In this document: positions 38,201 through 55,155 of the stretch, piece after piece
How the letters are laid out: each line of letters starts with the position of its first letter
Position numbering within the stretch: position 1 is the first letter of the stretch
From: a virus
DNA length: 64,000 nt
Virus record (IMG/VR): IMGVR_UViG_3300034111_001103
Location: 104,935 to 168,934 of that record
Direction: 5' to 3' (one strand)
Notes under the pieces: model-generated
Told to the model about the DNA's origin: nothing
The model's database searches: none
Seen by the model: the letters and a program-made list of their open reading frames with translations, nothing else
Made by a program: the position numbers and the translations under genes

Positions 38201-41200
38201 AGGTTGTTCTTTAGATAGTAGGGATTGTATTTGATTTTTAAAATTACTTATTTGATTATTATATCTGTTTTCTACTTCTGATATTTTTTTGTTTACTTCT
38301 GCTAATTGTTGTTTTAGTTGGTCAAGTTTTGTGTTTTCTGATTTAGAATAGTAAACACCTTCAGAAACAAATCCTTCTGCCACATAGTCAATAGGATTTT
38401 CAATCATGTTTTTTAAAATACCTAAAGCCTCATCATAAGCATTTGTAGATATTCCTAAAATATCTAAAATATAATCAAAAAACCTTTCTACAAAATTTAA
38501 TTCTTTGTTTTTTAAAGCATCTGTAAAACCATCATGTGTAAGTTCAGCAAGTATTTCATGTTCATTTTTTGAACCATAAAAATCTTTTGTGTTAGAATCA
38601 CTCTGTAACTCTCTCAATAAATTAGAAAGTTTTTTAGCAGCATTAATTTGTTTTGGGGTAAGTTTATTTAAAACTTCTGTTTTGTTGTATTTAACAGCAT
38701 CTATTATGTAACTTGTAACACCGTGCACTAACTCATGTACAATAGTCCTTGCTGCTACATCAGGACTTGTTAATAAACTTGCACGATTAGCTACTTGCCC
38801 ATTAGAATATTCACCTTGATGTTCTTTTGCAATATTGTTACCTTTACCCTCAAGAAGAAATTTTGTAGGTATTTTTAATTTTTCTGCGACATTTTTTATT
38901 AAATTCCATATAAACTTAGTTTGTTTACTACCATGTTTTTGCACAAAAGCATCTAACTCATTTGCATAATAAACTTTATCTAAGTCTATCCCTAGTTCTT
39001 CAGCAGATAATTTACTACGTTCATTTATACTTTCATCTACTGCTTCCTGATTTTCATTTAGTTTATCTACTCTTGTACTGTTATCTTCAAAATATTCTAA
39101 TTCAGAAGGTCTTTTGTAAGTAGTGCTATTTCTTTTTTCTAATTCTTGTATTATTTCTTCAAATGTAAAATCAGTAGTTTCTACAAAACGGTTTAATACC
39201 CTTATATCTTTATCTGATAAATTGTTTAATTGTGAAAAACTATCAACTAATGCTACAATTTGGTTTTTAAAACTTTTTTGTAAAAATCTTATCTTTTTAT
39301 TAAGTTTATTAAACAAGGATATTTTATTGTCAGGAATAGAACCATCTTCATTTCTAAGATTTACAATTTCTTTTTTTGCATCTTCAATTTCTTGCGTACT
39401 AGTTTCCGAACCTTTAGTATCTTTCTCAATTTCAGCAATCTCATTTTCTAATCTTTCTTTTTCTTCAATTAAAGGTTGTAGCTCTTTTGCTTTAGCTTTT
39501 TCTGCTTTTTCTATTTGTTTTTCTAATTCTTGTCTTCTTCTTTCTATATCAGCTTCTTTAGTTTCTATAGTATTATCTACCTGATCAGTAGTAGTTTCTT
39601 CTTGTTCTATTCCTAAATCTAATAATATATCTTCATCAGAAGTTAAGACTTTTTCAGATACTAAAGAAGAGTTTATTTTAGTTTGTTTAGGAGTATTATC
39701 TTTTACTAGATCTTTGAGTTTTTTTAACCTAGAGTTTTTATTATTGTTTTGGTAACTTTCTAAATCGGATAAAAGAACTTGTTGATCTTTAAGTTTTCCG
39801 TCTTCTTTATATCTAAACATTACAAATCCTTTACCATCTTTAGGTCTGTACACTAATCTACCTTTAACAACTGTTTCCTTTCCCTTAATATCTACAGGAA
39901 AAGTAAAAATAGTATTTTTGTGATCATAAACAAATCCTTTAGGATGGTTTAATTCTCTGTATTTTTTTAGAGAAGATTTTGGTGTAAATCTTTTATTATC
40001 AAAGTAATTAGCTGGTACTTCTTTTTCTATATTATCTTCTAGTATTTTTAATTTACCATTAGGTAATTGTTCTAAGATAGTAACATCTTTAGTTTCAAAT
40101 ACTTTAGCTTTTTCTTTAGATTTAACAAAATTATAGACATGTAAAACTTCTCCTTTGTTATAAAGTTTGTTTTTTATTTGAATTTTATCTTCAGGAACAG
40201 GTTCTATATTATCTATAGCTTGAGCTTCAGTATTTATATTAGTTATTCTTTCTTGAAGTTTAGATTTTAATTCATCTATTCTTTTTATATCATCAGTATA
40301 AAGTTTTCTATCAGGATTCTTTTCAGAAGAAAACATTTCATTTGTAAACTCAAATTGTTTTTTGTATTCATCTAATTTTTTAATAACACCTTCCAACACA
40401 GGAATATTTATTGATTCTGTATCTAGTAATGCAAAAAATTCTGGTAAATGTTTAGAAAGAGCTTTAGTGGGATCTGCTTGAAATTCATCTCTAAATGTAA
40501 GAGCTTTCTTTTTAAGAACATCTCTTTCTTCATTTAACTGATTTATTCTATCAAAAGTTTCTTCTGAAGGAGTACTTACTTGAGATAGTTTAAATAATTG
40601 ATGAGTTAAGTTATAAAATTCATCTTCTTCTTTAGGATTTAATAAATATGGAGTATAAGGAAGAGAATCTTTTCTAGTCATTTTAACATCTGAATAATAA
40701 TCTTCTACTTTATCTACTACTTCTTTTCTATTTTTAGCTTCAGGAAATAGTTTTAATAAAGTTTTATCATCTACAGTATTTAAATATTGTCTAGCTAATA
40801 GTAGATATTGTTCAGGATTTTGATAAATTTCTGAAGTAAAGTTTGCTAAACCACTTTTAGCAGTATGAGATAAACCTCTATAACCACCCATACCCATTGT
40901 AGGTAACATAGCTAAAGTAGTATTCATTATGGTACTTAGAGTTTCTTCATAAGTTAGTCTATCATCTGCTTTGAATTTTAAATTATTTCTCTCTACACTT
41001 TTATCAAAAGGGGTATTGGCAACATTTCCTACTAATTCTTCTATACTTTCTTCCATAGGAACTTTTACTAAAGAACTAAATAAAGTTTCTACAGTAGATT
41101 TCATTACAGGAGAAATCATAGATTTACCTAATGATTGTCTTAGAAATTGTTTTAATACAAAATCTTTTATAGGTTGTTTTGAAAGAGATTTAAATAAATC

Positions 41201-43432
41201 ATATTCAGGAGTCCACCACATTTCTGTACCTGTTTCTATAAGTTTCTCTCTTTCTGTTTTAGTTAATGCAGCATTAAGACTATCTAAATCACCACTAAGG
41301 TAACTTTCAAAGTTTTGTTTAAATATTTCATCGTGCATTAATAATTGTCCAGCAGGTAACCTACCTACTTTATCTGCAAAGTATCTTACTAAACCCAATT
41401 GACTTTTAGACAGCAAAGCTTCTATTCCTGTAGCTGCACCTATTTCTGCTCCTGCTGCTGCTAACATAGCACTTTCTATAAAACTAGAAATACCTTCTCT
41501 AAATGCAGCTCTAGGGTTTATAGATTTAGACCATTTTATAGAACCATCTTTTCCTCTTACTATAGTAAAAGCTTGTACATCCTTAATTGCTTTAGGAACA
41601 TACATATTTATATTGTTTGCATCATTTTTAAATTGTGCATATGTTTTTAATACTTGTTCATCTTTAGAAAGAACACCTGTTGCATTTCCCCCAATAAGAG
41701 CATAATTATGAACAGCATTAACTACACCTACCATTCCACCTACAGTAGGTTTGGTGAAAGGTTGTACTATATCAAATTGTACAGAAAATTCTTTAGCTTT
41801 TCTTTCATATTGTTCTGTGGTTTCTTTAAAGTTTTTAAAGTCTTTAAAGTTTTCTAGTTCTATTTGATCTATTTTTTCTTTGACTTTATCCTGTTGATTA
41901 GCTAAAGTGTTATATTTTTGTATTTGATTGTCAATCTCTTGTAAACTTTTAGGATCTATTTGTTGTCCTTTTGCTTTAAATTCAGCAATAGATTCTTGTT
42001 TATATTTAGATAATTCTCCAGCATACTTAGTATACATTTTTTTATTACCTTCAGTAAGAGCCTTTAAAGTTTCTAATCCTGAAAGAGTTTTTTCTTGAAA
42101 GTCCACTACATTTATATCATAAAGATTTCTTAACCCACTTTTAGCTATAGCAGATTTAGCTCTTGAGTCTCCTAAAATAGAGTTCTCTTTCAAATATTCT
42201 TCTAAAGTTTGCCCATTATTACCTCCAATAAATGTTCCTTTTTTAGTAAACATAGAGTTTAAGGCAGATTTTAGTTCTGGATTGGTTAAAGCACTTGATT
42301 CATATCCTAATTTACTTGCTTTAAAAAGAATATCGTTATTGTTTTGAGCTAAAAATTTTTCTGGAGCTTCTCTTATTACTTTAGCTTCAGTATTATTTAT
42401 TATATAAGGTATAGAAGCTTTTTGATCTAAAGAAATTATTCTATTATTAAGATCTTCTTTTTTTCTTTCTAAAAAATGGATAGTTTTATCATACTTAAAT
42501 ATTCTATCTAGAGTATCTTCATACTCTTGTATTTTAACACTATTATCTTTACAACCTTCACCAACACAATCTTTGTATCTTCCTAAAGTTTGCTTTAATA
42601 AGTTTTGATTAATTTTACTTTTTTCTAGGTAGTCTTCAAGTTTATTTTTTTCTTCTAAAAAACCTTCTTTTATAGGAGCAGTAAGTTTAGTTATTCCTTC
42701 ACTTATTTCTTCTGTAGTTTTATTAGGGTCAAATAAAGTATCATAAAGTTCTTTTTTAACTTGATCTCCTTGTTTAAGAGCCATCATATACATCTCTTTA
42801 TTAGAAGGATTATTTAAATCTATATTAACTAAATTTTGTTTATCATCTACATAACCAGATTTTATATCATAAGTACCAAACATTTGTTTAAAAGCTTGAC
42901 CATAAAATAACTCTTCTACAGACATAGGTTCCTTTCCTTCAACAGAAGGGGGTAAATCACCTTTTAATCTTTTTTCTTCTCCTTGTCCAAATAATACACT
43001 TGTTTTAGTAGGTTCTATTGGAGCTTTAACATTTAAAGGATTAGGAATAATTTCATCATACATACTAGCATATTTCTCTACAGATCTATTTAGATTTCCT
43101 TGAGCTATAGTTTTTTGAACATTAGTACTTAAGGGTTTAATTATAGGAGAAATAGGTTTAGTAGTATCATTTAGATTTACATTACTAGCTTTAGTTTGTA
43201 AAGTCTTAATGTTACTATCTAGTTCTGTTTTTGGGTCTGTAGTAGATTCATAATACCTAGATTTAAAAGTATTTATATCTGGTAATTTTATGTCACCTTT
43301 TTGTAATTTACCATATAAACTATCTAAACCTTCTGGTGTAGAATATTTTGTTTTAAATGTATTATAGTCAGGAACTTTTATATTTCCTGCGTCTAATTTG
43401 TCATAAAGTATTTTTAATTTATCTTCTGGCAT
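29279..43432 (-). CDS. Giant virion RNA polymerase protein of crAss-like type (4717 aa)
   Basis: The core is RIPTQALNSVEHFEIVGFL followed by GDAIMVPSEIVGKAGSDFDI, with the triple-Asp motif D3796-F-D3798-I-D3800. This is the DxDxD catalytic loop of two-barrel RNA polymerases related to YonO and to the crAss-like phage enzyme carried in the virion. Upstream are an N-terminal tandem repeat (residues 6-62), a helical region, a hydrophobic patch near 650, a long coiled coil at about 1280-1340, a zincin site H1566-E-L-V-H1570, and HEAYE at 2399. It should transcribe early genes after injection. At 4717 residues it is far larger than the phi14:2 enzyme (about 2180), so fused subunits or cargo domains are likely. 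Confidence 0.85.
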   Translation of the reverse strand: MPEDKLKILYDKLDAGNIKVPDYNTFKTKYSTPEGLDSLYGKLQKGDIKLPDINTFKSRYYESTTDPKTELDSNIKTLQTKASNVNLNDTTKPISPIIKPLSTNVQKTIAQGNLNRSVEKYASMYDEIIPNPLNVKAPIEPTKTSVLFGQGEEKRLKGDLPPSVEGKEPMSVEELFYGQAFKQMFGTYDIKSGYVDDKQNLVNIDLNNPSNKEMYMMALKQGDQVKKELYDTLFDPNKTTEEISEGITKLTAPIKEGFLEEKNKLEDYLEKSKINQNLLKQTLGRYKDCVGEGCKDNSVKIQEYEDTLDRIFKYDKTIHFLERKKEDLNNRIISLDQKASIPYIINNTEAKVIREAPEKFLAQNNNDILFKASKLGYESSALTNPELKSALNSMFTKKGTFIGGNNGQTLEEYLKENSILGDSRAKSAIAKSGLRNLYDINVVDFQEKTLSGLETLKALTEGNKKMYTKYAGELSKYKQESIAEFKAKGQQIDPKSLQEIDNQIQKYNTLANQQDKVKEKIDQIELENFKDFKNFKETTEQYERKAKEFSVQFDIVQPFTKPTVGGMVGVVNAVHNYALIGGNATGVLSKDEQVLKTYAQFKNDANNINMYVPKAIKDVQAFTIVRGKDGSIKWSKSINPRAAFREGISSFIESAMLAAAGAEIGAATGIEALLSKSQLGLVRYFADKVGRLPAGQLLMHDEIFKQNFESYLSGDLDSLNAALTKTEREKLIETGTEMWWTPEYDLFKSLSKQPIKDFVLKQFLRQSLGKSMISPVMKSTVETLFSSLVKVPMEESIEELVGNVANTPFDKSVERNNLKFKADDRLTYEETLSTIMNTTLAMLPTMGMGGYRGLSHTAKSGLANFTSEIYQNPEQYLLLARQYLNTVDDKTLLKLFPEAKNRKEVVDKVEDYYSDVKMTRKDSLPYTPYLLNPKEEDEFYNLTHQLFKLSQVSTPSEETFDRINQLNEERDVLKKKALTFRDEFQADPTKALSKHLPEFFALLDTESINIPVLEGVIKKLDEYKKQFEFTNEMFSSEKNPDRKLYTDDIKRIDELKSKLQERITNINTEAQAIDNIEPVPEDKIQIKNKLYNKGEVLHVYNFVKSKEKAKVFETKDVTILEQLPNGKLKILEDNIEKEVPANYFDNKRFTPKSSLKKYRELNHPKGFVYDHKNTIFTFPVDIKGKETVVKGRLVYRPKDGKGFVMFRYKEDGKLKDQQVLLSDLESYQNNNKNSRLKKLKDLVKDNTPKQTKINSSLVSEKVLTSDEDILLDLGIEQEETTTDQVDNTIETKEADIERRRQELEKQIEKAEKAKAKELQPLIEEKERLENEIAEIEKDTKGSETSTQEIEDAKKEIVNLRNEDGSIPDNKISLFNKLNKKIRFLQKSFKNQIVALVDSFSQLNNLSDKDIRVLNRFVETTDFTFEEIIQELEKRNSTTYKRPSELEYFEDNSTRVDKLNENQEAVDESINERSKLSAEELGIDLDKVYYANELDAFVQKHGSKQTKFIWNLIKNVAEKLKIPTKFLLEGKGNNIAKEHQGEYSNGQVANRASLLTSPDVAARTIVHELVHGVTSYIIDAVKYNKTEVLNKLTPKQINAAKKLSNLLRELQSDSNTKDFYGSKNEHEILAELTHDGFTDALKNKELNFVERFFDYILDILGISTNAYDEALGILKNMIENPIDYVAEGFVSEGVYYSKSENTKLDQLKQQLAEVNKKISEVENRYNNQISNFKNQIQSLLSKEQPTSTTQETPIIEITESSEETDDPTKDIKRIESEDDKLGIEQLFITTTSGHTIGQTGKESLKDNPQVTRLQTFLNNVEDIRQYELLALTEDNASNYGLSGIIFPSKESKDIKLVVVKKLGNGQIKFIGVDGKYLKDINPDTVIYTSMRLPKLTWNNGEENYHENSNSTEKTPENFQNEHIARRNNIIETIKKGKKKNITFPILYVTRGRPVEDAKKSFPITQSLDIKEPNTQIVIFPEKNKEGNFVIVHNKQEKSFPKGRPFVKVGTHLEFLENRRISPEDIDVVMAVLTKIGENKKLSLSQDKEEKIETSKENKKLFDFLSKILYIRNPEYTDKNGETVKQETPLGNNQIFFKTSPSFSIQIPKTSLLPLNTKGLPKIKNELNNRMIFHNIDSNGMMNEFIEYYLEKGKLLERKWATYQDYLISDILPNGNKRSNDEIPLKIKLNPSSETTPNKFGRMMVFKDDTKYAYVDTESFESANEDIPFSSEDGSYQLTNKDLIVNYTIKTVGEEKTVTIDKTFNSKLSNEVIKELIKSNIIELGVFAKESYSFKKIEPIVEKEPVVSEEKVEETNSNNIGFNESDISTTSENIKDFKLVDSEETDYEVEDIEKAEEYLDNVLPQIPLQSVEGLIDNVAWGQLKDKAILLSTLAKRGTIQHEAYEALQKHFLSPKRIERLREEFRNRKGSFIDYQTKKSVKYSEATDFQIKEELADEYMRYHLSKGKLKWDGEYYKNSWFKQLYNIILDLFLGNIESTFKNLSSGKYRKLRLKYNLNSLTKENKLADIELTNPLFYNDSMKSITALLFQFITDKGDSLGNLLKSDINIDNYYDEVRAFFEHIMSSPEERRNFFKEPGKYYTAVHNATLEETNEKFHDVQTSMLYILDNWDYFVKANKKYLGKYKIEFEDEELEENNPNKENKDKNDQFVNTLTINRKLNANLKIKLLVATLKDQYYSPVTRRVITRPNSLFLPTLVDYNKTFVQLMYALAPATNYTEMMDMLYDLTKVDAKFLPLINKLKLDEEVVDKATVELRNDFFIAFSNFKNTYYKLIVNEDGSSVNFVINEKDGINKLKNEWYEKLKSNKKVSVSQGHYVFNLGKPIPTLKTLDQYAQFAKDELGIDIRLKYTKYTSTEEDEILKLLSSIVNYTLSEKEGNIDNIITDSREFKGKFDKLAQLYNKYNPIYETTQHKNIEGEMVQNITLPSYITSINKIFNSISTKGELIDRLPHYAQTMLHSELFSPSGTKKGNITVGVTEGIEERQSDNTDASNKLSLSGRLALDFANGINNIYSIIVPADTKNEWVITYPKSVLSSASDKIYYLPIFINYFKAEVAKAQRESNLKQNTNQLGLFKEILSEKTLSNIDLSEGIETILLKNKEDIEKDLLTFFKERAKETENRLWINNLIVPIEGKKDEYRILLTPEGKEEKTVEGTFNKFKNISKEQIASIVYEEEVKYMINIFEQFNLFFLNPNEWKDPFKRIKQTTSGSQKVVYSAQYFNDYHNKNSNVAFIEEDTIGQESTESVELFPGDLGYVNHQEEFNVQVYIDPVVVSEEYEALKEILGEEEAKPYSELKEPDAQALAFLGGYSQIKRRANSWTEVDEAFKQYDDALCRSDMDLYPKAKKDKKRADALRALDKKIIAKGNPFFTIQAINKVREEQGLNPLPLPNMNILKPAYNGLKSDGTFEQHKYSVAPLIWSHIRYIDEATGEVKFSNAKDFYIKHYTNQTTYITFESANKVGQTKDTEELYKPNGTPNLNIKHKVLSWEWFGIQVETITQKMSTTLGTQLTKLGILNLMSNGVPKDFRKTNSHLSEEDLKTEWDSLSEEEKRTASNHYNLVRKNFEILAAMETKAINQFYKDFGGEVTIDPNTNRKVLTFNNYKKFEEKIQQELVNRDKPLNVKSLIRTNDQGQFILPFDTIISGTDTVENIINSIINKAILTPKIFGGQFPQIASTLFERNPRKKDSKTKKLYSGELKFYKNEDGKRICQVKLPWRYKELLGLENFDFSKIDKELLKGIGFRIPTQALNSVEHFEIVGFLDPSYGDAIMVPSEIVGKAGSDFDIDKLNLYLYNHKFNKQTGKLEKINFLNNTNSTVEERYKKLQKAQTFYEFLNSKEGYNYFKASLDTDSTKLISDIFGEDLSDSRIDLTKSYDENLEIAKQNSEEEKKSIPTFEEFKKLSIYEQNSKKALDNYYIDNLREIVQLEENFKQLVKPNSADPLENEANKIKELKERNQKKKAYHTSILSRLHNIVKRYSFLVGKEGVGIAASNQTLNAISQTIVSNIPVEFPFLFNTNVPVNDANTIYSLSQELNSKGERISDLISMFLDAFVDIANKPYIFDANGNLTTAGTYIAGVRLGIPLSTLVRFFNQPIIIDYVNLLIQNQGALVRLNKRNPKSKKEIQEQLIVKYKLPTDKEGRMITLDRENYTDQELEEFILSDKNPDFAINQATLLVQFRQLEQVAQDILTLSQGVNVDTTLDRSFDSTRVKLSKLKDALESSLGKTMFELYKTTHIGNLYEIKNTILKSFSELYLSENPVIRPFLNKLMNSVLQSKKSIDDIEKELKNIRKDLVTYLLHTLPITYGPLVDQTISSYYPTLFLNKDTNIANTIRQAQETYKGSSMFLSNIIGVNPVYLNKDDKHFQSRLLRKPEDSNESNQMTADLYNLSKKATTENLAKSIIIGVIAQNGVTNTPNSYNTLIPADAIENIMAQVLTQFREKLSPELQQQYIEDFVNNYYQSKWYDNKLVPIYQAPVYENRTKNIYRQQKVTKGDLEATVNIIQIASSKEITQKPYIKVKKQAINPKTGKYYTKVEKDAMVKRKDFSFNEIVLYKRLEVPNPITQEKDVPLVATKDNKGFLVTYFPVRKYGNRETSEYYNSNTDYKPSYINNESVQTLRPNMNENLLRNMKDTMPIYWDSELKSRYSFKSQDFLVSLQNMLDKLNNQQKLPFTQNQPTQSQESNITSEELGLNTNLSQKDAKCLQ

Positions 43433-43443
43433 TTTATTGTTTT

Positions 43444-45015
43444 TTAAACCCCTAAATCTTTTTTTTCAGAAGTTGAATTCCCATGAGATGTTGGAAAAGC
43501 TTTTTCTACTCCTTTTACAATATCATCTACAGGATATTCAACTGTTTTATTAAACCTATTAGGTATTTCTATTTCTACTGTATAACTTCTTTTTAAAGGA
43601 TTGTATTTAGCTTTAACTACATCATGTTCATTACCCATTATATCATGATAAGAATTCAATAAGTCAATAACAGAAGATTCATCCCCTCCAGTTATTGCAT
43701 CTTTAACAGAATACAAATCTGTTTTAATTTTTACTTTTTCATCTCCTTTCTGTGTTTCTAAATTCACAACTGTTTTCTTTTCAGACTCATCTTTTTGACT
43801 TGTACCTATTTTACCTTTTAAATCATTTTCTACATCAACAAGATTTCTTCTTGTACCATAAGCATCTAAAATAGGTATACCGAGTTTACTAGCTCTTTCA
43901 TAAATACTTCTTGCTATTGGATCTTTAATAGTAGATACAAATTCTGAATCTACTTTAGCTTTATAAGCATATACTTCTTTTTCTTTAGCACCTTGAGCAG
44001 CAATAATGGCTTTTTGGTTTTGTAGTTGTCTATACATTTCTTCTTGTTTAGACATATCAAATCCTCCAAAAGAATGAGAATTTTGAATATTCATTAAATC
44101 TTCTTTAAAATCATTCATAAATTCTTCTTTACGTAAAGACTTTAGTATTTCCCCATTTACTCCAGGATTATTTATAGCAGAACTATATTTAGATATATAA
44201 CCTTCAACTTCATACAAAGCTTGTTTAGCCATTACATTATTTGGGTCTTTATTAAGTATTTGTAATGCTTCATTTTTATAAGCAGATAAAGCATTTAATT
44301 TTTCTGTAGCATCTTGTAAACCTTCTGTTCCCCAATCTCTATCTGCAAATTGTTCTTCAAATTCATAATCTTTTAAAGCTCTTACATTAGGATCAGACAT
44401 CATATTATTAGTAATTAAACTTATTTCATTTGGGTCATAGAATTCATCTACTCTTCCTGTTTTAGGATCAAAACTTTTAATTTTTTTTAATTTACCTATT
44501 TCTTCTGTAAGTCTTTTTCCTATCTTAGGATCTAAAAAACCTTGACCAGTAAATTTAGTATCTCTTATGTAAAGTCCTTGGTTTATATATCTTTCTGCTT
44601 GTTTGAGGATACGAGAATAATATGTTTCTCCTTTAGCTAAAGCATCAGCTTGTTTTTTAGCTTCTATTTCTGTTACAGTACCTCTTTCAGCAATACCCAT
44701 AAAATCAGGATTACTTGTTACTTGTGAAATATATCCTTTTAATTGATTTAGAGTAGAAGGATTTCTAAAGTCATTATGAGAAATTTTAGATACTTGTTGT
44801 AATACTCCATCTATTATTTCTTGTTTCTTTTTAGTATCTTCTCCAGGAAGAGAAGGGATACTATACAGTTTGTCTAAAAGGAGATCATCTGCTTTTTGAA
44901 TATTATCTTGGATATTTTTATCTGTAAATAAAGCTCCTTTCAAAAGTAAATCTTCTGAAACTGGCGGCTTCCATTCTACTGGTTCGACTGGGGTGCTATA
45001 AGGGGTGAATGCCAT
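43444..45015 (-). CDS. Presumed virion cargo protein (523 aa)
   Basis: A mostly helical, highly charged protein with no enzyme motif. Segments such as NIQKADDLLLDKLYSIPSLP and EIEAKKQADALAKGETYYSR suggest long helices. It ends with a beta-rich domain (KIKTDLYSVKDAITGGDESS, then RSYTVEIEIPNRFNK). It lies directly upstream of the RNA polymerase gene (11-base gap), the place where crAss-like genomes have proteins found inside the capsid and tail. Its own promoter candidate precedes it. The cargo role comes from gene order only. Confidence 0.5.
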   Translation of the reverse strand: MAFTPYSTPVEPVEWKPPVSEDLLLKGALFTDKNIQDNIQKADDLLLDKLYSIPSLPGEDTKKKQEIIDGVLQQVSKISHNDFRNPSTLNQLKGYISQVTSNPDFMGIAERGTVTEIEAKKQADALAKGETYYSRILKQAERYINQGLYIRDTKFTGQGFLDPKIGKRLTEEIGKLKKIKSFDPKTGRVDEFYDPNEISLITNNMMSDPNVRALKDYEFEEQFADRDWGTEGLQDATEKLNALSAYKNEALQILNKDPNNVMAKQALYEVEGYISKYSSAINNPGVNGEILKSLRKEEFMNDFKEDLMNIQNSHSFGGFDMSKQEEMYRQLQNQKAIIAAQGAKEKEVYAYKAKVDSEFVSTIKDPIARSIYERASKLGIPILDAYGTRRNLVDVENDLKGKIGTSQKDESEKKTVVNLETQKGDEKVKIKTDLYSVKDAITGGDESSVIDLLNSYHDIMGNEHDVVKAKYNPLKRSYTVEIEIPNRFNKTVEYPVDDIVKGVEKAFPTSHGNSTSEKKDLGV

Positions 45016-45120: not shown

Positions 45121-47547
45121 TTATTTTAGTTTTTTCTTTAAATTTAATTTAATTTTACCTCCATGTTTTCCTTGAGGTTTATCTTTTTCTTTATCTTTTT
45201 CTTTCTCTTTTTCTTTTTGGGGTTGACTCCCACTATAAGAAGGATTCCAAGGTTCATCAGTAGCATTAGGCATAAAAGTAGAGTTAATGTAATGTTTAGC
45301 TAGAGCATAGTCTCTTCTTAGCATATCATTTTTTAAAGCTTGATTACTATCCTTTCTCATTTGAATATCTAAAGCTCCATCTCTTCTATATATTTTGTCA
45401 GTAAAATTATTTAATTCAGCTTGATTTAATTGGTCTATTCTCATATTAGCTTGAGCATTAAATTGTTGTGCTTGACTATCTTGTCCTCTATCATAGTTAT
45501 ATTTTTGACCATATATTTGTTCATTCTGATTGTAGGCATTTGTTTGAGCTTGTAAAAGATTAGCTACATCTGCTGAAGTTCTAGAACCTAGATTAGATTT
45601 GAAAGCATTATAACCTCTTTGTACTTGATTTAATTGAGGTTGTATATTTAAATACCTAGGGTCTATATATTCTGGAGTTAAAGAAGAAGTAGATATAGGT
45701 GCTTTAGCATAGTTTCCTGGGATATTAAAACCTCCCATTAAGTCCATATAATTAGGATTTTGTCCTTGTGTAGCTTTTCTGTAGTCAAATTCTGTTTCTG
45801 GACCTAATTGATCTCCTTGTCTTTGTGCAGGAGGAGAAGTTCTGGGTTGAGTAGAGTTTTGAGTAGTTGATGCAGGTGTTTGTCTAGGAAAAAACATTCT
45901 TTTACCTCTATAATTATCTATAAAATTACCTCTTAAATCTTTTAATTGTTGATCTGATAAATTATTAACATCATAATCTTTATATCTAGCTTCATTTTTA
46001 TTAGTAACTCCCCATTGTTTATACATATCCCTAATTAAAGAAGGATCATTGTCTAAAGCCCAATCATAAGCAAATTCTTGCAAATCTTCAGTTTTTTCAA
46101 ATCTATCTTTAGCTCCTAATGCTCCAGCTTCTCTAGCTTTTTGTTCCCACATTTGTCTAGCACCCTCCCAATTGAACACAGGATTATCATTTAAATTACC
46201 TCCTTTTGGAGTTTCTTGTCCTTGTTTAGTTACAAACTTTTGTTGAGTCCAATTATCTTCTTGACCTCCTCCAGACATTTTAGGTAATTGCCCCCCATTC
46301 TTCATATAACCTTGAGCCATCATAGCTTCTTGTTGTACTTTAGAACCATGAAGACCTGTTAATTTTTGTATTTCTTGTTTTTGAAAAAGCTCATCTAGAT
46401 TTTCATTCTTTAGTTTAATATTTAAATCTGCTGTAGCTTTACCTATTTTATCTGTGAATTTAGATTTAAGATTTTTTACATCTTTTTCTGTAGAATAAAG
46501 TTTTGCCATTTGAGCATAAGATTTTTTAGTTTTAGAGTCTTTTAGTTTTTCAGAAAACACTTTAGTACCTTGAGGAAGTTGCATATCTATTCCTCCTTGA
46601 GAATGTGGTGGTCCATACACAGGTCCTGCAAGTCCATTAGGAATTTGTAACATTTCTTGTCCTTCTACTTCTACATTAGCTCCATTTTCTGCTTTATAGT
46701 TATGCATTCCTATTTCTCCCCCATGAGCACGATAAGCTTGGCTTCTGTTATATTCAAAATCTTGATTAGTAGGGTTTTCTAAAGATTGTCTTTTAGCAAA
46801 AGTTAATGCTTGAGCTTCTTGCCATTGAGTTCTATTATTTCTTATAGAATTACCTGCATTATCTAGGATACCTTTTACTCCATTTATAGAAGCCATAGCA
46901 GCATTACCAAAAGCTGCTGCTCTGTTAAAGTATTTATTGTTAGAAGGTCCAAATATACTATCTAGATTCCATCTACCTTGTTGTCCTTGAGTAGATTGTC
47001 CTTGTTTACTTTCATAGGGTTGATAGAGATCTGTTTTGCCTGAAAGAATATCATTAGAGTTATATCTATCATCTAGTGGAGTATTTCTAAATTGACTTTT
47101 ATTTTCATATAAACCTCTTGTATTATAAGGATTTTCTGGAATATTATATTGAGGTGGTCCCATAGTTCCTGGTGCTTGTGGTCTATTAGCAACTATATTA
47201 GAAAACTTATTAGGGGGAGTATTCCAATTAAATCCTACTCCCATATTACCTCCAGTATTAGGATTAAACCCTTGAGTATTGTCTAGCATTCCTGGATTGT
47301 AAGGTTGATAGTTTTGTTGAGTATTCCAAGCATTGTTTTGGTTTAAATTTAAAGGTTGTCCTAAAGAGTTTTGTAATGTATCATCAGTTATAAGTCCATT
47401 ATCAGCTTTAGGTAGTTTACCTCCATTTTTCATTAATGGTTTTATTAAAGAATCTATATCTTCTCCATTTTGTATAGCTCTTTTTACTTTATTTTGTAAG
47501 TTTTTAGGTATTACTATTTCTATACCTTGTTCATTTCTTATTTTCAT
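45121..47547 (-). CDS. Virion protein with NGG motifs (808 aa)
   Basis: A glutamine/asparagine/proline-rich, low-complexity protein. Near residue 295-345 is VEVEGQEMLQIPNG, GPPHSQGGIDMQLPQGTKVF and SEKLKD, a pattern I associate with a conserved structural or cargo protein of crAss-like phages. Short NGGK/NGGQ/HGGE/HGGK tags recur (about 41, 276, 420 and the C-terminus), and the end carries a (KEKEKDKEKDK) run before GKHGGKIKLNL. It is located between the muzzle-like gene and the polymerase genes. It is likely carried in the virion; precise role unknown. Confidence 0.6.
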   Translation of the reverse strand: MKIRNEQGIEIVIPKNLQNKVKRAIQNGEDIDSLIKPLMKNGGKLPKADNGLITDDTLQNSLGQPLNLNQNNAWNTQQNYQPYNPGMLDNTQGFNPNTGGNMGVGFNWNTPPNKFSNIVANRPQAPGTMGPPQYNIPENPYNTRGLYENKSQFRNTPLDDRYNSNDILSGKTDLYQPYESKQGQSTQGQQGRWNLDSIFGPSNNKYFNRAAAFGNAAMASINGVKGILDNAGNSIRNNRTQWQEAQALTFAKRQSLENPTNQDFEYNRSQAYRAHGGEIGMHNYKAENGANVEVEGQEMLQIPNGLAGPVYGPPHSQGGIDMQLPQGTKVFSEKLKDSKTKKSYAQMAKLYSTEKDVKNLKSKFTDKIGKATADLNIKLKNENLDELFQKQEIQKLTGLHGSKVQQEAMMAQGYMKNGGQLPKMSGGGQEDNWTQQKFVTKQGQETPKGGNLNDNPVFNWEGARQMWEQKAREAGALGAKDRFEKTEDLQEFAYDWALDNDPSLIRDMYKQWGVTNKNEARYKDYDVNNLSDQQLKDLRGNFIDNYRGKRMFFPRQTPASTTQNSTQPRTSPPAQRQGDQLGPETEFDYRKATQGQNPNYMDLMGGFNIPGNYAKAPISTSSLTPEYIDPRYLNIQPQLNQVQRGYNAFKSNLGSRTSADVANLLQAQTNAYNQNEQIYGQKYNYDRGQDSQAQQFNAQANMRIDQLNQAELNNFTDKIYRRDGALDIQMRKDSNQALKNDMLRRDYALAKHYINSTFMPNATDEPWNPSYSGSQPQKEKEKEKDKEKDKPQGKHGGKIKLNLKKKLK
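45181..45220 (-). repeat. Low-complexity Lys/Glu-coding repeat
   Basis: A pyrimidine-rich run on the + strand made of short TTTTTCTTTATC-like units encodes KEKEKEKDKEKDK near the end of the 808-aa protein. Replication slippage could change its length between isolates. The repeat is exact only in parts. Confidence 0.6.
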
Positions 47548-47560
47548 ATTGTTTGATTTT

Positions 47561-48688
47561 TTAATCTATTATTGTCCAATTTGATATTTTACCTCCATTT
47601 CTATATAATCCTGTACTAGCTAATCCAATATTAGCTCTTTCTCTACTATCTGCTGATTTGTCTGCATCTTCTTGATTTGTAAAGTATCCTGTATGATAAC
47701 CATTTTTATAAAATTCATCTATTGCATTATTATTAGGAAACCTAATACCATTAATAACTGTAGGGATATTATAGTAACCTGTTTCATCATCAATACCTAT
47801 TACACTTTCTGTGCTAACATTTCCATTATTATTATCATATAATTTTTTTCTAGGACTTCCATCTGGATTTTGATTTAAAGGTAAAAAAGTTCCTGTATAG
47901 TTTTTACTATATTCTGGTTGAATACTTTCAGGAATAGTTCTACCTCCATTTTTATAAGTTTGTTTAGATGCATTATTAAACAAATCATATTTTTGTTTTA
48001 AAGTAATAATATCTCCAGCATAATTAAAAGGAGCAAAACCTGTTTTTTTACTTTTTATAAAAGATAAAGCATCTGAAGCTACACTTGCTTGATTCAAAGT
48101 ATCTGTTGGGTTTTTATAAAGTTCTACAACATCTTGAGCATTTAAAGCATAATCCAATCCTTGTCTTAATTGAGGGGGAGCAAAATATTTTCCTAATGTT
48201 ATCATTGTAGTGCCTACAGCATCTGCTTTGTTTATAAGGGGGGTATGAGGTAATTGATCTTGATATTTACTTTCTAAATTACCAATTTCTTGTCCTTTAT
48301 CTCTTTGTTTTAACATATCAAAAAAATTAGAAGAACCTAAACCTCCATTTAAAGAACCTATAGAGTCTTGTATTTGTTTTAAATCATTTAATTTTTTTTG
48401 TACATTTACAATATTAACTTTAGGGGTTGTATTTAATTTTATCCCTTGAAAATTTAATTTATCTGTTAATGATGGTTCTATTTTAGTAGCGTCTTGAACT
48501 GGTATAAAATTAGGTTTTGGTATAATAGTAGGTATATTTTTAGTAGAAGTAACAGTTATTTCTGGTAACATAATTGGATTATATATGGATCCAGATTGTT
48601 GTCTTTGGGAGACTATATCTCTAGTAGCTCCTCCATTAGGAAACTTGAATACATCTTCAACAATACTCCATTTTGATTTTTTCTTCAT
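47561..48688 (-). CDS. Virion protein with NGG motifs (375 aa)
   Basis: The chosen ATG at 48688 overlaps the previous stop by one base (TAATG), as elsewhere, and gives KKKSKWSIVEDVFKFPNGG; a longer start at 48724 is less likely. The middle is unremarkable. Near residue 250 comes KNGGRTIPE. The C-terminal region GYYNIPTVINGIRFPNNNAI followed by DEFYKNGYHTGYF is a repeat-like segment found in other phage internal proteins, and the protein ends in YRNGGKISNWTIID. Both ends thus carry an NGG tag next to a Trp-Ser/Thr-Ile segment. A structural or injected role is inferred from position. Confidence 0.55.
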   Translation of the reverse strand: MKKKSKWSIVEDVFKFPNGGATRDIVSQRQQSGSIYNPIMLPEITVTSTKNIPTIIPKPNFIPVQDATKIEPSLTDKLNFQGIKLNTTPKVNIVNVQKKLNDLKQIQDSIGSLNGGLGSSNFFDMLKQRDKGQEIGNLESKYQDQLPHTPLINKADAVGTTMITLGKYFAPPQLRQGLDYALNAQDVVELYKNPTDTLNQASVASDALSFIKSKKTGFAPFNYAGDIITLKQKYDLFNNASKQTYKNGGRTIPESIQPEYSKNYTGTFLPLNQNPDGSPRKKLYDNNNGNVSTESVIGIDDETGYYNIPTVINGIRFPNNNAIDEFYKNGYHTGYFTNQEDADKSADSRERANIGLASTGLYRNGGKISNWTIID

Positions 48689-48906
48689 TATATTGTATCT
48701 ATTAATTTTAGAATTTCTTTCCATTTAAACATTTCATCATATTCTACTTTAATGGTTTGAGTAGATAATGTAAACTCAATACAAAAGAATTTATCTTGTT
48801 CATTATAACTTTGTATTGCTAGTATCTTTTCTTTAAAGGAAAGGTGTAATAAATTATCAATGTAAATTTTTATTTCATCTCCTTTGATGTCTATTTTAGC
48901 TTCCAT
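48688..48906 (-). CDS. Hypothetical protein (72 aa)
   Basis: A small beta-rich protein (DIKGDEIKIYIDNLLHLSFK, FFCIEFTLSTQTIKVEYDEM) that ends in an amphipathic helix. It sits between the Dps-like gene and the NGG-motif gene with one-base overlaps on both sides, so it belongs to the same unit. No known family. Confidence 0.55.
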   Translation of the reverse strand: MEAKIDIKGDEIKIYIDNLLHLSFKEKILAIQSYNEQDKFFCIEFTLSTQTIKVEYDEMFKWKEILKLIDTI

Positions 48907-49325
48907 TAAGAAAGAAACATTAGTTTATAAATCAATTTGTTTAGGTCAGATTTTGTGTTATCTAGTACATTTACTATTTCAGAAAAAGGTATTATTTTTT
49001 GTAAGTCTGTAATCATTGTTTTTAATTCTTTAGCATATTGTATTGCTTCTTCTTTAGTATTTAATACTCTAGGGGCAGAATCTTTGTAGGTTAAAAGTTT
49101 TTCAAAAGCTCCTTGACTTTCCTCTGCTATTGTATCTGAATGGTCTGGAAGAGAATCATAAATTTCATTTAGTGCCAAATGAATTGCAAGTGAACCTGGA
49201 CCTGTTATTTTTAAATGTAACTTATGGAAGGAAGTTGCAGCATTCATTAATTCTGATACACAGTCAGATATTTTAGTTAACTCTATTGTAGGATTATTAA
49301 TTTTTTTAAATTCTATTGATGCCAT
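48906..49325 (-). CDS. Dps/ferritin-like protein (139 aa)
   Basis: The first half matches the Dps mini-ferritin pattern: HKLHLKITGPGSLAIHLALN then EIYDSLPDHSDTIAEESQG. The positions H37, H49 (+12), D64 (+15) and E68 (+4) reproduce the spacing of the Dps ferroxidase ligands (H51, H63, D78, E82 in E. coli). The helical second half (TKEEAIQYAKELKTMITDLQ) fits a four-helix bundle. Dps proteins bind DNA and oxidise iron, protecting DNA from oxidative damage. This one lacks an obvious lysine-rich DNA-binding tail. It lies between muzzle-like and cargo-like genes, so it may be packaged or expressed late. Confidence 0.75.
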   Translation of the reverse strand: MASIEFKKINNPTIELTKISDCVSELMNAATSFHKLHLKITGPGSLAIHLALNEIYDSLPDHSDTIAEESQGAFEKLLTYKDSAPRVLNTKEEAIQYAKELKTMITDLQKIIPFSEIVNVLDNTKSDLNKLIYKLMFLS

Positions 49326-49329
49326 TTGT

Positions 49330-52300
49330 TTATATTATTGATTGATTTGTTTTATTTAATTGAAATTTTAAAAGAAATTGATAGTTAGAAAGTTTATCAT
49401 TCTCTAATCTTATGTTGAAAAAATCAGACCTTAATGGTACAGTTAAGTATTTAGGTGCATAAGAAATTGAAAGAATATTAGACTCTTTATACATTGGATT
49501 AGTTATATATTTAACTAAAGGTTGATTGTTGTTTTGTGATAAGTCTTCAAAAGTATTGAATCTAAAGTTGTTTTCTACATTTTCTGTTAAGATGTCCTTA
49601 GAGTTTAAAGCTATTCTAGGATACTTAGAAGATTGGTAAAAATTATTCTTTTCCTTCACTATAAGATTTAGAATACCAGAAGATTGATTTTGATTATAAA
49701 TAAGAGCTTTGTTAAAAGTTTTATCTTCTATTTTGTAGAAATCGTATTCTGTGGTATATCTTCTTAGATCTGTATTGAAAGAAACAGATTGTAATATTTG
49801 ATTTACATATTTATCCTCAGATTGATATTCAAACATAAAGGTATGTAAATGTCCATAAAATACTTGATAAGATTTAGGTGTTAGGAGGTGAGACCATAAT
49901 CCTTCTTCATGTAAATTGTTAGGTTTATAGTTTACTCCAGAAGAAAAATAATTAAATGCTGGTGAGTAATAATTAGGGAGATAAGTGTAGAAGGAAATAA
50001 TAGTATCGGTTTGAGGATAATATCCTATAGTCCAGCATTGATTTGTAAAGTATATTGTATTGGAAGGTAATATTTCTGTGGAGTCTAAGAAGAACTTATT
50101 ATCTTGTAGGATTATTTTTCCTTTATATTCTTGTTTTAATTGATGATCTCTTTTGGTAATAAGAACTCTTTTAAATCTTTCATCCCAAGTCATTGAGATA
50201 CCAAACCATTTAAAGTTATTGTTGATATTAATAGTAGGAAAATCTTTTAGTATCTTAAAAGGTAAGTTTTCTTTTAACCAATTAGAAGCTAATTTATCTC
50301 CTACAGGTTGTATTTGTCCTTGACCTTGATGATGTATTATAGCTCCTCTTTTAGCATCTACCCAATATTGTCCAAATTCTGTAGATACAAAAGCAGTATG
50401 TTGAGAACCTCCAAAACCTAAATCTGTTTTTTTGTATTGTTGAGGTTGTTGAGCAAATAATTTATTAGTACCTACAAAAGAAGTTCCTAAATCTGTTTGT
50501 AGTTGTACAAAAGAATTGTAGAAAGTAGCTTGATCTTCTTGTAAAACAATAATAGTATTATTATTTGTTCCTCTTATTTGAGTTATTTTACCTCCTGATT
50601 TAGGTATGTCTATGTAGTTGTTAGCTAGATAAATAAGATTTCCATCATAGTTATCATTGTTATCATTATCTTGTAAAGAGTAAATAATTCTGTTATCATT
50701 TATTACTTTACAATCTTCTTTTTCTTTAGAGTAGCTTGGAGAAAGTATGTAACCTAGATTTTCTTTATTTTGTTTAGAGTAGGTAGTATTGTAAGAATAG
50801 TAGTTATCTTCAAATATAGGTACATTAGTTTCTTGAGTCCAAGTATTTGGATCTCCTACATAAGGATAGAAAGACTTTTCTTTAAAGTTTTCTCCATGTC
50901 TTAAATCTAAGTTATAATCACTTTCTACTAAGAAAGAAGGAATACCATAAGAATAAAGAAACATTTTACCTTTTATGAATACAGGGGCTTTTCCAGGTTC
51001 TTGACCTGCAAAGTTTAATCCTGTTAAGATACCAAAAGTAATAGGTATAGAAATAATACCAGCACCTGCTGCCCCTCCAGAAGCTACTGCTCCTAAAGTA
51101 TTTCCTGCTACTGCTAAAGAATTTCCTGTAGAATCTTCACAAGTTAAGTTATAATCTAATCTTTTGTTAGATTTAATACCTACATTAGCAAAAAGAGAAG
51201 AACCTGAATTATCTGAAGAGTCTGCTCCAGTAGGATAATTAAAGAAAAACTTAGGGTAGGCTACATTATATAATTCTGAATAAAATACATCAGCATTATC
51301 TAAGTATGAAGTAGAAGGGTTTATAGAAACTCTTTCTTCTATAAAGAAAGGGTGTTTTATCTTAAGAGAGAATCTATTTATAAAAGTATCTCCTCCAAAT
51401 ATAGGATCACATGATGTATCTTGTTCTAGGTTAGTCCAATCTATTTCTCCATTATATCCTGTATCTAAATATTCTATATGATTTATAGAGCCATATTGAG
51501 AAGGGTTATAATTCTTAAGGGAAGCATAGTAGGAAGATATAGGTCTGTAAAGATTATTTGCATTACAATCTAATGTAGTATTGGTATAATAATCATAACA
51601 ACCTGGAGCCCATCTAGAGTAATCTTTGTTTAGTGTAGAAGTGAAGAACTTATCTATATTTAAATAAGCAGAAGATTCTCTTCTAGCATTGTTAAATTTA
51701 ATAAATTTATCTCCATCTTGCACATTAAATATTCCAGAACCTAAGTAAGAAGTATTTAAAAGTCTTCTTCTAGTGTTACCATCATTAAAATCTTGAGGTA
51801 TAGCACTATTAACATATCTTCCTACAGAGGAATAAGTTTGAGCATAATTTCTAAAAGGTGCAAACTTTTGTAATAATTCTAACCATTCATAGTAGTGATT
51901 TACTATTTCTGAAGGAGCTGATATATTTAAAGCTATTGCAGAAAGAATATAACCTAAAGGTACAGATGTTCCAGAACCTAATACTGTTGTATTTATAGAA
52001 ACATTGGTTTGTAATAAGTTATTAATAGAACTTATAGAAGTTTCTGTGGTTGCAAAACCTAATGCAGCAGCAGATAAACCTGAACCAACTAATTGATATT
52101 CAGCATGTTTATTTACTTTATTATAAGAACCATAAGAAAAACCAAATTGCTCACATTCTAGTTTTAATTCTGTACCTAAAGAAGGTCTGTTAAAATGAGT
52201 GTTAGGAGAATGGAAAGTATATTTGTTATTTTTATAATCTTGACTTCTGTAAGGGTGTAATTGTGAAAAAGTAGTAATATAAGGTTTGTTAGCTAATTCT

Positions 52301-55155
52301 GCTTGATCTGCATTTTTTAAAGGAAGTCTAGATAAAAATATATCTTGGTTAAAATCATTATAAGGATAGTTAGGATAAAGAACCTGTAATCCTGCTTGAG
52401 TAGTATTGTCTACATAATTCCAAACATCATAAAGTAAACCTTTACCTATAATAGATTGATTACCTGCTCTGTTACCTCTTAGGATTCTAAACCCACATAT
52501 AGATAATTTTTCTTGTTCAGAAATTAACCCTAGAGTGACTGCATTATCTAAAGCTTCTTTCACAGTAGTAATGTCTATAGTCACTCCTATAGGGTATATT
52601 TTATTTTTTACTTGATAACTTTCTTGAGAGTTAGGGTCTATTGGAGTATTGTTTCTGTAGAAAGGAGAAATGTTAAAATCAGGAAACTTATAATGTCTTA
52701 TGGGAGTATCTGCTAAAGGTCCCCAAACTTCTTCATTGCAAGGGTATCTTTCTGAAGATTCCCAATATCCAAAGTTTCCTTTTTTGTAAACTACTCCATT
52801 ACAATTATTATCTATTGTTTGAGTAGAATTATATCTTATTTCATAAGTACATTCCAACACATATACAGCTGGAACTGTAATTTCTTCACAAGGAGTTCCA
52901 TCTGGTATAGGAGTATTGATACAAATATCAAAGTAAGAACCAATACCTGCTAAAGCAGGATCTATTGCAAATGTAGGGTCTAAGTTATATACTTTTACTT
53001 TATAATTGTTTCCAATAATAAAAGGAAAACTATTGTTTACAAAATAAAAATTATTAGTATTATTAGCACAACCTAGTAAAGTTGTACAATCATTATCATA
53101 TACCTCTAAGATTAAATCTGTTCCATAAGCTGTAGTATCATATCCTATAGATATAGCATGATTCATTGCTGTAGCAGTAAAATTATACCATACAGCATTA
53201 TCTGAAAAACCTGCTCCTGCACAAGCAGAAGTAGGAGCTATAGAAGGAGAAGCAATATATCTTAAGTAACCATAGAAAGGTAATCCTACTGTTCTATTAC
53301 AAGTATCATTTCCTTGAGGAAAAATAAACATACCTCCTCCACAAGTTATATTTGTGGGTAATATCCAAGCATTAGGTGTAGTAATTGTAGGAGGAACTGC
53401 TGTATCTTGTATTCTTGTATAAGGAGGAATAGGGGCTACTGGAGTTGCAATATCTTCTTCATAATGACATTGTTCATAAGTAAAGGAAGGAGTTACTACT
53501 CTAGGAGTAGAAGATATTAAAGCTGGAGTACCTAAAAGTGGAGGGTATTGTGATAATAAATCATCATAACAATGTTCTTCTTGTAAGTAAGAAGTCCAAC
53601 AATCTGTAGGTACAGGTATAGGGTCTCCTGTAGGAGTAGTTAGTAATCCTCCATATTGATAAGAAGTACATATGAGGGTATCTGTTACTTCTATTTCTGA
53701 AGTTATAGGTACTTCATAACCACAAGGAAATCCTTGGTCTTCTGAAGCCAAATTATATACTTGCCATCTTAGGTCTAAAGGAACATCACAATTATCTACT
53801 TGTATAACATCATTATTGGAAATAATATCATCTGTAGTTAATGGAGATATTTGAGCATTAACTTCAGATTTAGTTGGTCCAGGTATATGAAATCTAGCTG
53901 TAGATTGACCATTAGTTTTAGTAAATTCTACAGCATAAGAATACACTTCATCTCTTAGATTAGATCTATATTTAGAAGCCAAGATAGGATTTTTATAATC
54001 TCCTTCATTTAATTCTACAGTAATCCACTTTAGTCTTAAATTATTAACTACAGGTTGTAAATTAAATATTCTATCTTGTTTTACATTACCCCAAAGCACA
54101 TATCCATTAGATTCTGTTATTAGTTCTGCTTGAGAATAATAAGGATACCTAGCAAATATTTGGTCTATAGATAAATCTTGTATTAAGTTTCTATCTACTC
54201 CTGTATAATTATAAGTTATAACTTGATCTGTTACAGATAAGGTTTGTACTAAGTGAACAGAAGAAGTATTGTTAATAGTCTTGATGACTACTATATTAAA
54301 GTTTTGGAACTCTTGTGATAGGTCATATATAGTTAATTGTATAGTTTGATTTACTATATAATCTGTTTCTACAGTTATTTCTCTATCTGAAAGAGGTATT
54401 GGATTAGTTACATAAAAATAATGTCCTATAGGGTTTCCTAAAGAATCTGAATAAGCTATAGCAAATTGATAAGTACCAGCTTTATTTTCTCCTCCAGCTC
54501 TTACTATTTCTTGTTGTATTTTAGGGTAGCAAGTATCTTTAAATACTTTTATTTTATCACAATCTAATTCATCAGTTTCTACTAAAGGACAATTAGATAT
54601 TGTTTTCTTTTGGTAATCATAATCTATATATCTTAAACCTGTAGGAGTGTTATCTGTAAAATAAACTCTAATATTACAATCATCTACTTTAACCCAAGAC
54701 TGTATAGGACTATCTATAGAAAACCCTAAACAATCAGCATTAACTATTGTTGTATAGTTGCAGTTTTCTTTTTGAGGTAAAGTTTCTAAAGGAGGATCTT
54801 CTGTTGTAGGATTATTACAAGCATCACAAGAATATTGTCTATCTTCTGTAACAGAATAATTGATATAAGATATTTCCCCTATCTCTGAAGATTGAGTAGT
54901 AGGATTTACTAAAAAATATATAGCTTTAGAAAGAGACGGAATATTAGTAACATTTATTACTTTAAATCCATCTTTAAAACCAGTACATAAAATATTACTC
55001 ATTTCATTGGTAATATTAAATATATCTCCTCCTTTATCTTGTATATTTCCATTTATAAGATACCTGTATGAGTTTGGTTTTAATTCTCCTTCTCTGGAGT
55101 TTAAATCCATACCTAATTTAGATACATTTAAATTTATATTTTGATTATCTGCCAC
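49330..55155 (-). CDS. Muzzle-like tail protein (1941 aa)
   Basis: The N-terminus (LNSREGELKPNSYRYLINGN) with many later beta segments resembles the long tail 'muzzle'/stabilisation protein of crAss-like phages, and the gene order ring-ring-ring-muzzle agrees. About 615-750 is a PPC-like beta-sandwich (DNAVWYNFTATAMNHAISIG...GTDLILEVYDNDCTTLLGCA...YKVKVYNLD), a domain common in secreted Bacteroidetes proteins and not expected in every muzzle. Cysteine pairs near 110-130 and 560-640 suggest disulphides or metal sites. The C-terminal third contains FGGSQHTAFVSTEFGQYWVD and long strands. The protein probably forms the distal end of the tail. It starts 18 bases after the preceding ring gene ends. 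Confidence 0.65.
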   Translation of the reverse strand: MADNQNINLNVSKLGMDLNSREGELKPNSYRYLINGNIQDKGGDIFNITNEMSNILCTGFKDGFKVINVTNIPSLSKAIYFLVNPTTQSSEIGEISYINYSVTEDRQYSCDACNNPTTEDPPLETLPQKENCNYTTIVNADCLGFSIDSPIQSWVKVDDCNIRVYFTDNTPTGLRYIDYDYQKKTISNCPLVETDELDCDKIKVFKDTCYPKIQQEIVRAGGENKAGTYQFAIAYSDSLGNPIGHYFYVTNPIPLSDREITVETDYIVNQTIQLTIYDLSQEFQNFNIVVIKTINNTSSVHLVQTLSVTDQVITYNYTGVDRNLIQDLSIDQIFARYPYYSQAELITESNGYVLWGNVKQDRIFNLQPVVNNLRLKWITVELNEGDYKNPILASKYRSNLRDEVYSYAVEFTKTNGQSTARFHIPGPTKSEVNAQISPLTTDDIISNNDVIQVDNCDVPLDLRWQVYNLASEDQGFPCGYEVPITSEIEVTDTLICTSYQYGGLLTTPTGDPIPVPTDCWTSYLQEEHCYDDLLSQYPPLLGTPALISSTPRVVTPSFTYEQCHYEEDIATPVAPIPPYTRIQDTAVPPTITTPNAWILPTNITCGGGMFIFPQGNDTCNRTVGLPFYGYLRYIASPSIAPTSACAGAGFSDNAVWYNFTATAMNHAISIGYDTTAYGTDLILEVYDNDCTTLLGCANNTNNFYFVNNSFPFIIGNNYKVKVYNLDPTFAIDPALAGIGSYFDICINTPIPDGTPCEEITVPAVYVLECTYEIRYNSTQTIDNNCNGVVYKKGNFGYWESSERYPCNEEVWGPLADTPIRHYKFPDFNISPFYRNNTPIDPNSQESYQVKNKIYPIGVTIDITTVKEALDNAVTLGLISEQEKLSICGFRILRGNRAGNQSIIGKGLLYDVWNYVDNTTQAGLQVLYPNYPYNDFNQDIFLSRLPLKNADQAELANKPYITTFSQLHPYRSQDYKNNKYTFHSPNTHFNRPSLGTELKLECEQFGFSYGSYNKVNKHAEYQLVGSGLSAAALGFATTETSISSINNLLQTNVSINTTVLGSGTSVPLGYILSAIALNISAPSEIVNHYYEWLELLQKFAPFRNYAQTYSSVGRYVNSAIPQDFNDGNTRRRLLNTSYLGSGIFNVQDGDKFIKFNNARRESSAYLNIDKFFTSTLNKDYSRWAPGCYDYYTNTTLDCNANNLYRPISSYYASLKNYNPSQYGSINHIEYLDTGYNGEIDWTNLEQDTSCDPIFGGDTFINRFSLKIKHPFFIEERVSINPSTSYLDNADVFYSELYNVAYPKFFFNYPTGADSSDNSGSSLFANVGIKSNKRLDYNLTCEDSTGNSLAVAGNTLGAVASGGAAGAGIISIPITFGILTGLNFAGQEPGKAPVFIKGKMFLYSYGIPSFLVESDYNLDLRHGENFKEKSFYPYVGDPNTWTQETNVPIFEDNYYSYNTTYSKQNKENLGYILSPSYSKEKEDCKVINDNRIIYSLQDNDNNDNYDGNLIYLANNYIDIPKSGGKITQIRGTNNNTIIVLQEDQATFYNSFVQLQTDLGTSFVGTNKLFAQQPQQYKKTDLGFGGSQHTAFVSTEFGQYWVDAKRGAIIHHQGQGQIQPVGDKLASNWLKENLPFKILKDFPTININNNFKWFGISMTWDERFKRVLITKRDHQLKQEYKGKIILQDNKFFLDSTEILPSNTIYFTNQCWTIGYYPQTDTIISFYTYLPNYYSPAFNYFSSGVNYKPNNLHEEGLWSHLLTPKSYQVFYGHLHTFMFEYQSEDKYVNQILQSVSFNTDLRRYTTEYDFYKIEDKTFNKALIYNQNQSSGILNLIVKEKNNFYQSSKYPRIALNSKDILTENVENNFRFNTFEDLSQNNNQPLVKYITNPMYKESNILSISYAPKYLTVPLRSDFFNIRLENDKLSNYQFLLKFQLNKTNQSII

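Follow-up and report, generated by a model that had tools for sequence, protein, structure and literature searches.

The occurrence of a predicted mini-ferritin gene among the virion genes of a phage raises two questions: whether its product is a genuine Dps-type ferroxidase, and whether this product serves the virus particle or the infected cell. We analysed such a gene of a crAss-like phage in a 64,000-base stretch of DNA (the window), which comprises bases 104935-168934 of a 168,934-base IMG/VR virus record. Phage-borne Dps-like proteins are already known, but have been taken for helpers of the infected cell or given the label 'transcriptional regulator'. Here, the ligands prove conserved as far as phage T4, the gene recurs in modules of the tail barrel, the muzzle and the portal, and in one slot Dps is exchanged for a true ferritin with a common tag. 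Our analysis suggests a link between iron handling and the assembly or protection of the virus particle, and provides a concrete, testable case for virions with an iron-oxidising cage, which bears on virion stability, on phage-carried iron and also on the uncharacterised T4 gene rI.-1.

Identity of the Dps-like protein

The gene is located on the minus strand (48906..49325), starts with ATG and encodes a protein of 139 residues that was identified by profile, alignment and model as a Dps-like mini-ferritin (DUF5856/phrog_858). A sequence-only reading of the window had noted the four-ligand Dps pattern in this ORF (H37, H49, D64 and E68). The ORF is real, with the residues at these positions, and they correspond, with identical spacing, to H51, H63, D78 and E82 of E. 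coli Dps. A chance match had been considered unlikely. By itself the spacing is moderately rare, with a single occurrence among the 71 window ORFs against 0.03 expected after shuffling, and it is the family evidence that is decisive. The protein matches PF19174 (DUF5856) with 46.3 bits against a cut-off of 34.6 (E 9e-12) and phrog_858 with an E-value of 7e-17, and sequence searches recover solved Dps proteins with weak but consistent matches (E from 6e-4). All four ligands are invariant in the 61 distinct sequences compared (61/61; the window protein and 60 distinct close relatives) and are among the invariant columns of an alignment of 15 diverse phage members; when the window protein is aligned with those of T4, RB49, Kuttervirus and P19250A and with E. 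coli Dps, no columns other than these four and D122 are invariant. T4 rI.-1, RB49 rI.-1, Det7 gp75 and Sajous1 gp217 share both the DUF5856 (PF19174)/phrog_858 profile and the ligands.

Structure prediction, proposed by the sequence-only reading as a check on the fold, returned a four-helix bundle in the AlphaFold monomer (helices at residues 12-39, 45-74, 91-111 and 115-138; pLDDT 90, pTM 0.82) and thus no contrary fold. The top structural matches in the PDB are Dps proteins (Foldseek E 2e-3, TM 0.74; VIA Z 16.9, 2.0 Å over 127 residues). As that reading expected, homologues keep the H/H/D/E ligands, with a single ligand-dead exception. This homologue, encoded behind a muzzle gene (L182:14890-15333), has lost most of its ferroxidase ligands, yet is a near relative of the window by muzzle sequence; its fold may serve another use.

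Compared with E. coli Dps, S. pyogenes Dpr and M. smegmatis Dps2, the window protein has the four-helix bundle, the H51/H63/D78/E82 spacing and a similar length in common, but shares less than 20% identity with them, and both the protein and its genome record stay below the curated cut-off of Pfam Ferritin (PF00210). Unlike classical Dps, the modelled protein lacks the BC helix between helices B and C, where residues 75-90 are predicted as coil, and the residue behind its first ligand His is Leu, not Trp. Its N-terminal tail is also short and weakly basic (about 11 residues, net charge +1); certain classical Dps proteins are themselves without DNA binding (PDB title, 1o9r). Because the BC helix is missing and PF00210 is not reached, we file the protein as Dps-like DUF5856/phrog_858 and not as classical Dps, and regard this family as a phage branch within the Dps/ferritin world. 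The missed PF00210 cut-off and the low identity to cellular Dps could be taken to mean that a helical structural protein happens to display H/H/D/E. However, profile matches, the invariance of the ligands across many lineages and the Dps-matching fold make such a coincidence negligible in probability, and it is already refuted in practice. On sequence and model together, the product is almost certainly a Dps-like ferroxidase.

Genomic placement in the window and in related phages

In the window, the dps gene is closely packed between virion genes. Upstream of its start, across a gap of 4 nt, is a 1941-residue crAss-type muzzle (tail-tip) protein (49330..55155, minus strand; phrog_37948, E 6e-185), which in tblastn matched structural genes of Cellulophaga phi17:2 and Leptolyngbya phage Lbo-JY46; a sequence search of the PDB returned no matches for this protein or for a 241-residue virion protein of the window. 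The dps stop is overlapped by 1 nt by a 72-residue ORF for which no known family was found (48688..48906), followed by a 387-residue ORF without functional assignment that separates dps from the cargo-like genes (47561..48724). Further downstream, likewise on the minus strand, are ORFs of 808 residues (45121..47547; candidate cargo protein 1), 523 residues (43444..45015; candidate cargo protein 2), 4717 residues (29279..43432; candidate virion RNA polymerase cargo) and 3143 residues (19830..29261; an RNA-polymerase-associated cargo by position, no database family found). The largest of these encodes a DFDID motif at residue 3796, which we take to be the catalytic motif of the crAss virion RNA polymerase, and the 808-residue ORF has a relative in L009 at 34% identity. 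Their order and sizes parallel those of the C1, C2 and RNA-polymerase proteins of crAss001 (PMC10172136). The neighbourhood of muzzle- and cargo-like genes proposed by the sequence-only reading is therefore confirmed for the muzzle by its profile match, whereas the 808- and 523-residue ORFs are cargo candidates by order and size in comparison with crAss001. No terminator-like site was found in positions 47300-50500, and dps, between muzzle and cargo, is probably translated from the late virion-gene message. Within the same virion-gene region, an ORF at 57532-58806 matches a DNA repair exonuclease family (phrog_704, E 1e-40).

In related phages, the gene recurs in three settings. In loci found through dps itself, the genes almost always run portal, g419, major capsid protein, g338, g237, dps, g539 and g188, and nearly all of these loci have the ring-dps-g539 order, a neighbour order that is biased by selection through dps. 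A second sample, chosen by the ring gene g237 independently of dps, comprised 80 loci, 68 of which encode dps behind the ring gene; in some others the slot is empty (e.g. L288, L289 and L300). By its model, g237 matches the crAss001 ring proteins of the tail barrel (E 1e-10 for 7qoj_D), and the capsid protein of these loci is related to those of crAss-like phages and Leptolyngbya phage Lbo-JY46. The ring gene is identified by structure, since profile comparison with the 241-residue virion gene of the window gave nothing, and we do not claim that the two correspond.

For the muzzle, a single-sequence scan found no relatives, and an alignment-based scan recovered 56 loci. L176 (the same as L009), L178, L179, L181, L182, L184, L217 and L218 have a dps-family gene directly at the 3' end of the muzzle gene or close to it, and L220 has one elsewhere. 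In the muzzle tree, the nine sequences with dps at this end (9/9), the window included, fall into two clades, and none of the 39 others (0/39) has dps, in the sense that dps is absent from the fetched stretch, which in some cases is incomplete. The Dps proteins of the window and L009 group with ring-slot Dps, whereas the L178/L184 type is separate, so two Dps subtypes occupy the place behind the muzzle; the nearest relatives of the window protein are ring-slot proteins of crAss-like phages. In three small podoviruses, dps comes immediately behind genes for the portal or the head-tail connector. On one contig (IMGVR_UViG_3300042526_000402; L024 and L075; 135,860 bases), dps occurs twice, both times with a module of head genes; this contig may be chimeric or consist of two genomes joined together.

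Ferritins in the ring slot and the N-terminal tag

Related phages fill the comparable slot with other Dps types or true ferritins. Three ring loci without dps encode a classical ferritin in its place (L297:3705-4238, L299:3702-4325 and L302:3717-4274; PF00210, 1e-21 to 3e-25), which matches bacterial ferritins in the PDB. A scan with these three ferritins yielded 78 ferritin loci (further ring-slot ferritins are in L316-L388), with the ferritin behind the ring gene in 70 of the 78 and dps following the ferritin in five of those 70; such ferritins are nearly absent from records of isolated phages. They are of the bacterial FtnA type (PF00210), longer proteins with an intra-subunit ferroxidase site that belong to a family other than that of the window protein, yet often bear the same N-terminal tag as ring-slot Dps.

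This tag (LKRP / I-x-RP) is alike in the ferritin of L370 (MQKIARPTIFSTKG) and the Dps of L270 (MQKITRPSIFSSS), and in the ferritin of L299 (MEKPRILKRPEIV) and the Dps of L006, which reads YKLKRPASS. A strict form of the pattern matches 96 of 143 distinct Dps proteins and 26 of 53 ferritins, where shuffling expects 1.7 and 0.9, respectively, and none of the ring (0/194), g539 (0/185) or capsid (0/119) proteins; as it was written after the sequences had been seen, these counts measure specificity and are not a blind test. In the ring-slot relatives, the tag probably anchors the cage to a phage partner; alternatively, it could bind DNA or be left over from recombination at a conserved 5' end. 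The N-terminal tail of the window protein (MASIEFKKINNPTIELTK) does not match the strict pattern and is at most a remnant of the tag.

Evidence from virions and competing roles

The sequence-only reading suggested that the protein could be packaged, and published proteomes support this indirectly. A 'starvation-inducible transcriptional regulator' was detected with 26 and 27 spectra in the CsCl-purified Klebsiella phages VMC03 and VMC04, respectively (PMC13119998). This is the label of phrog_858, and the aligned protein of Jiaodavirus LAL003 has all ligands; the VMC03/04 protein is assigned to the family by product name and by the genus it shares with LAL003, and not by its own sequence. In CsCl-purified virions of Salmonella phage Sajous1, the predicted ferritin gp217 was found with 10 spectra, beside a tail completion protein (196 spectra) and two hypothetical proteins (32 and 20 spectra) (PMC10892097); its sequence is that of a DUF5856/phrog_858 member with all four ligands. 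Low counts such as that of gp217 may reflect contaminants. Free iron-filled cages could also co-band with phage in CsCl. Packaging is thus supported by placement in several lineages and by mass spectrometry of family members from phages other than that of the window, and the link to the virion is stronger than the sequence-only reading had it. A literature search lying mostly outside subscription journals found no report linking Dps or ferritin with crAss-like virions.

For the window protein, we favour, with moderate confidence, a ferroxidase that is made with and carried by the particle. The protein would assemble into a cage, probably a dodecamer, because D64 and E68 are too far along helix B to form a same-chain site with H37 and H49. 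The cage would oxidise Fe(II) and store Fe(III), and would be built into, or ride with, the particle, where it could keep iron chemistry from harming DNA and cargo enzymes, a protective role that is plausible. More tentatively, and short of an even chance, the neck/tail module of crAss-like phages might contain an 'iron-cage slot', in which cages without common origin (two Dps subtypes, classical ferritin, or ferritin plus Dps) replace one another and are attached by a short interchangeable N-terminal tag, giving virions an iron-oxidising nanocage, with the window as a muzzle variant. Several observations weigh against a particle-carried ferroxidase, namely that the available virion proteomes cover other family members and no crAss-like one, that iron-filled cages could co-band with phage and the gp217 count is low, that T4-like members are outside the virion operon, that L182 has lost most of the ligands, and that the window protein lacks the strict tag.

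The main competitor, which we consider unlikely though still credible, is a soluble enzyme that lowers free iron and late oxidative damage in the infected cell and is left unpackaged, its placement among virion genes reflecting late expression. A role of this kind in oxidative stress was proposed for DPS-like genes in gut phages, 'Gratiaviridae' among them (PMC8008677), and in Lactobacillus phages (PMC6669764); these genes likewise encode phage-borne Dps types and appear in the accessible parts of these papers as intracellular helpers, with neither virion slot nor tag described there. It would also agree with the increase of host dps and catalase during YerA41 infection (PMC7354516) and with the T4-like members, which are encoded in the rI lysis-inhibition operon, whereas the window gene is placed between muzzle and cargo genes; given the T4-like arrangement, the link to the virion does not extend to every family member. 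However, a soluble enzyme predicts neither a slot-specific tag common to Dps and ferritin nor detection in two virion proteomes. A further idea, the 'Ferrojan horse', holds that iron in the particle helps the phage to attach or enter by way of host iron uptake. Ferritin keeps its core inside the cage and not on display, which speaks against this use. Iron-mediated entry was proposed for Vi01-like phages, in which a virion-held family member lies beside a tail completion protein, but TonB and FeoB mutants of Salmonella were infected as before (PMC10892097), and we regard this as the most improbable of the functional alternatives.

Hardly more probable is an accessory role in lysis timing, as suggested for T4 rI.-1, in which the Dps fold would serve protein contacts and not iron chemistry. 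T4 rI.-1 (MobD.6; L232:1995-2381) is a Dps-like DUF5856 member with all four ferroxidase ligands, and according to a review, lysis inhibition lasts slightly longer when it is over-expressed (PMC6832632). A frameshift in rI.-1 distinguishes the T4-Barr and T4-Rao stocks from T4-Hancock (PMC8573959), so the gene seems dispensable in the laboratory. Against a role in lysis timing, no residues are better conserved than the four metal ligands, and ferritins substitute for Dps in the ring slot. Several unrelated phages have an endolysin or spanin gene next to dps (L009:7335-7880, L184:14892-15404, L166:6357-7427 and L174:3502-3972), an adjacency that is possibly accounted for by the late-gene neighbourhood alone. 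The annotated 'holin' of Methylophilaceae phage P19250A (L082:8390-8827) matches HNH endonuclease families and not holins, which weakens a general link between dps and lysis genes.
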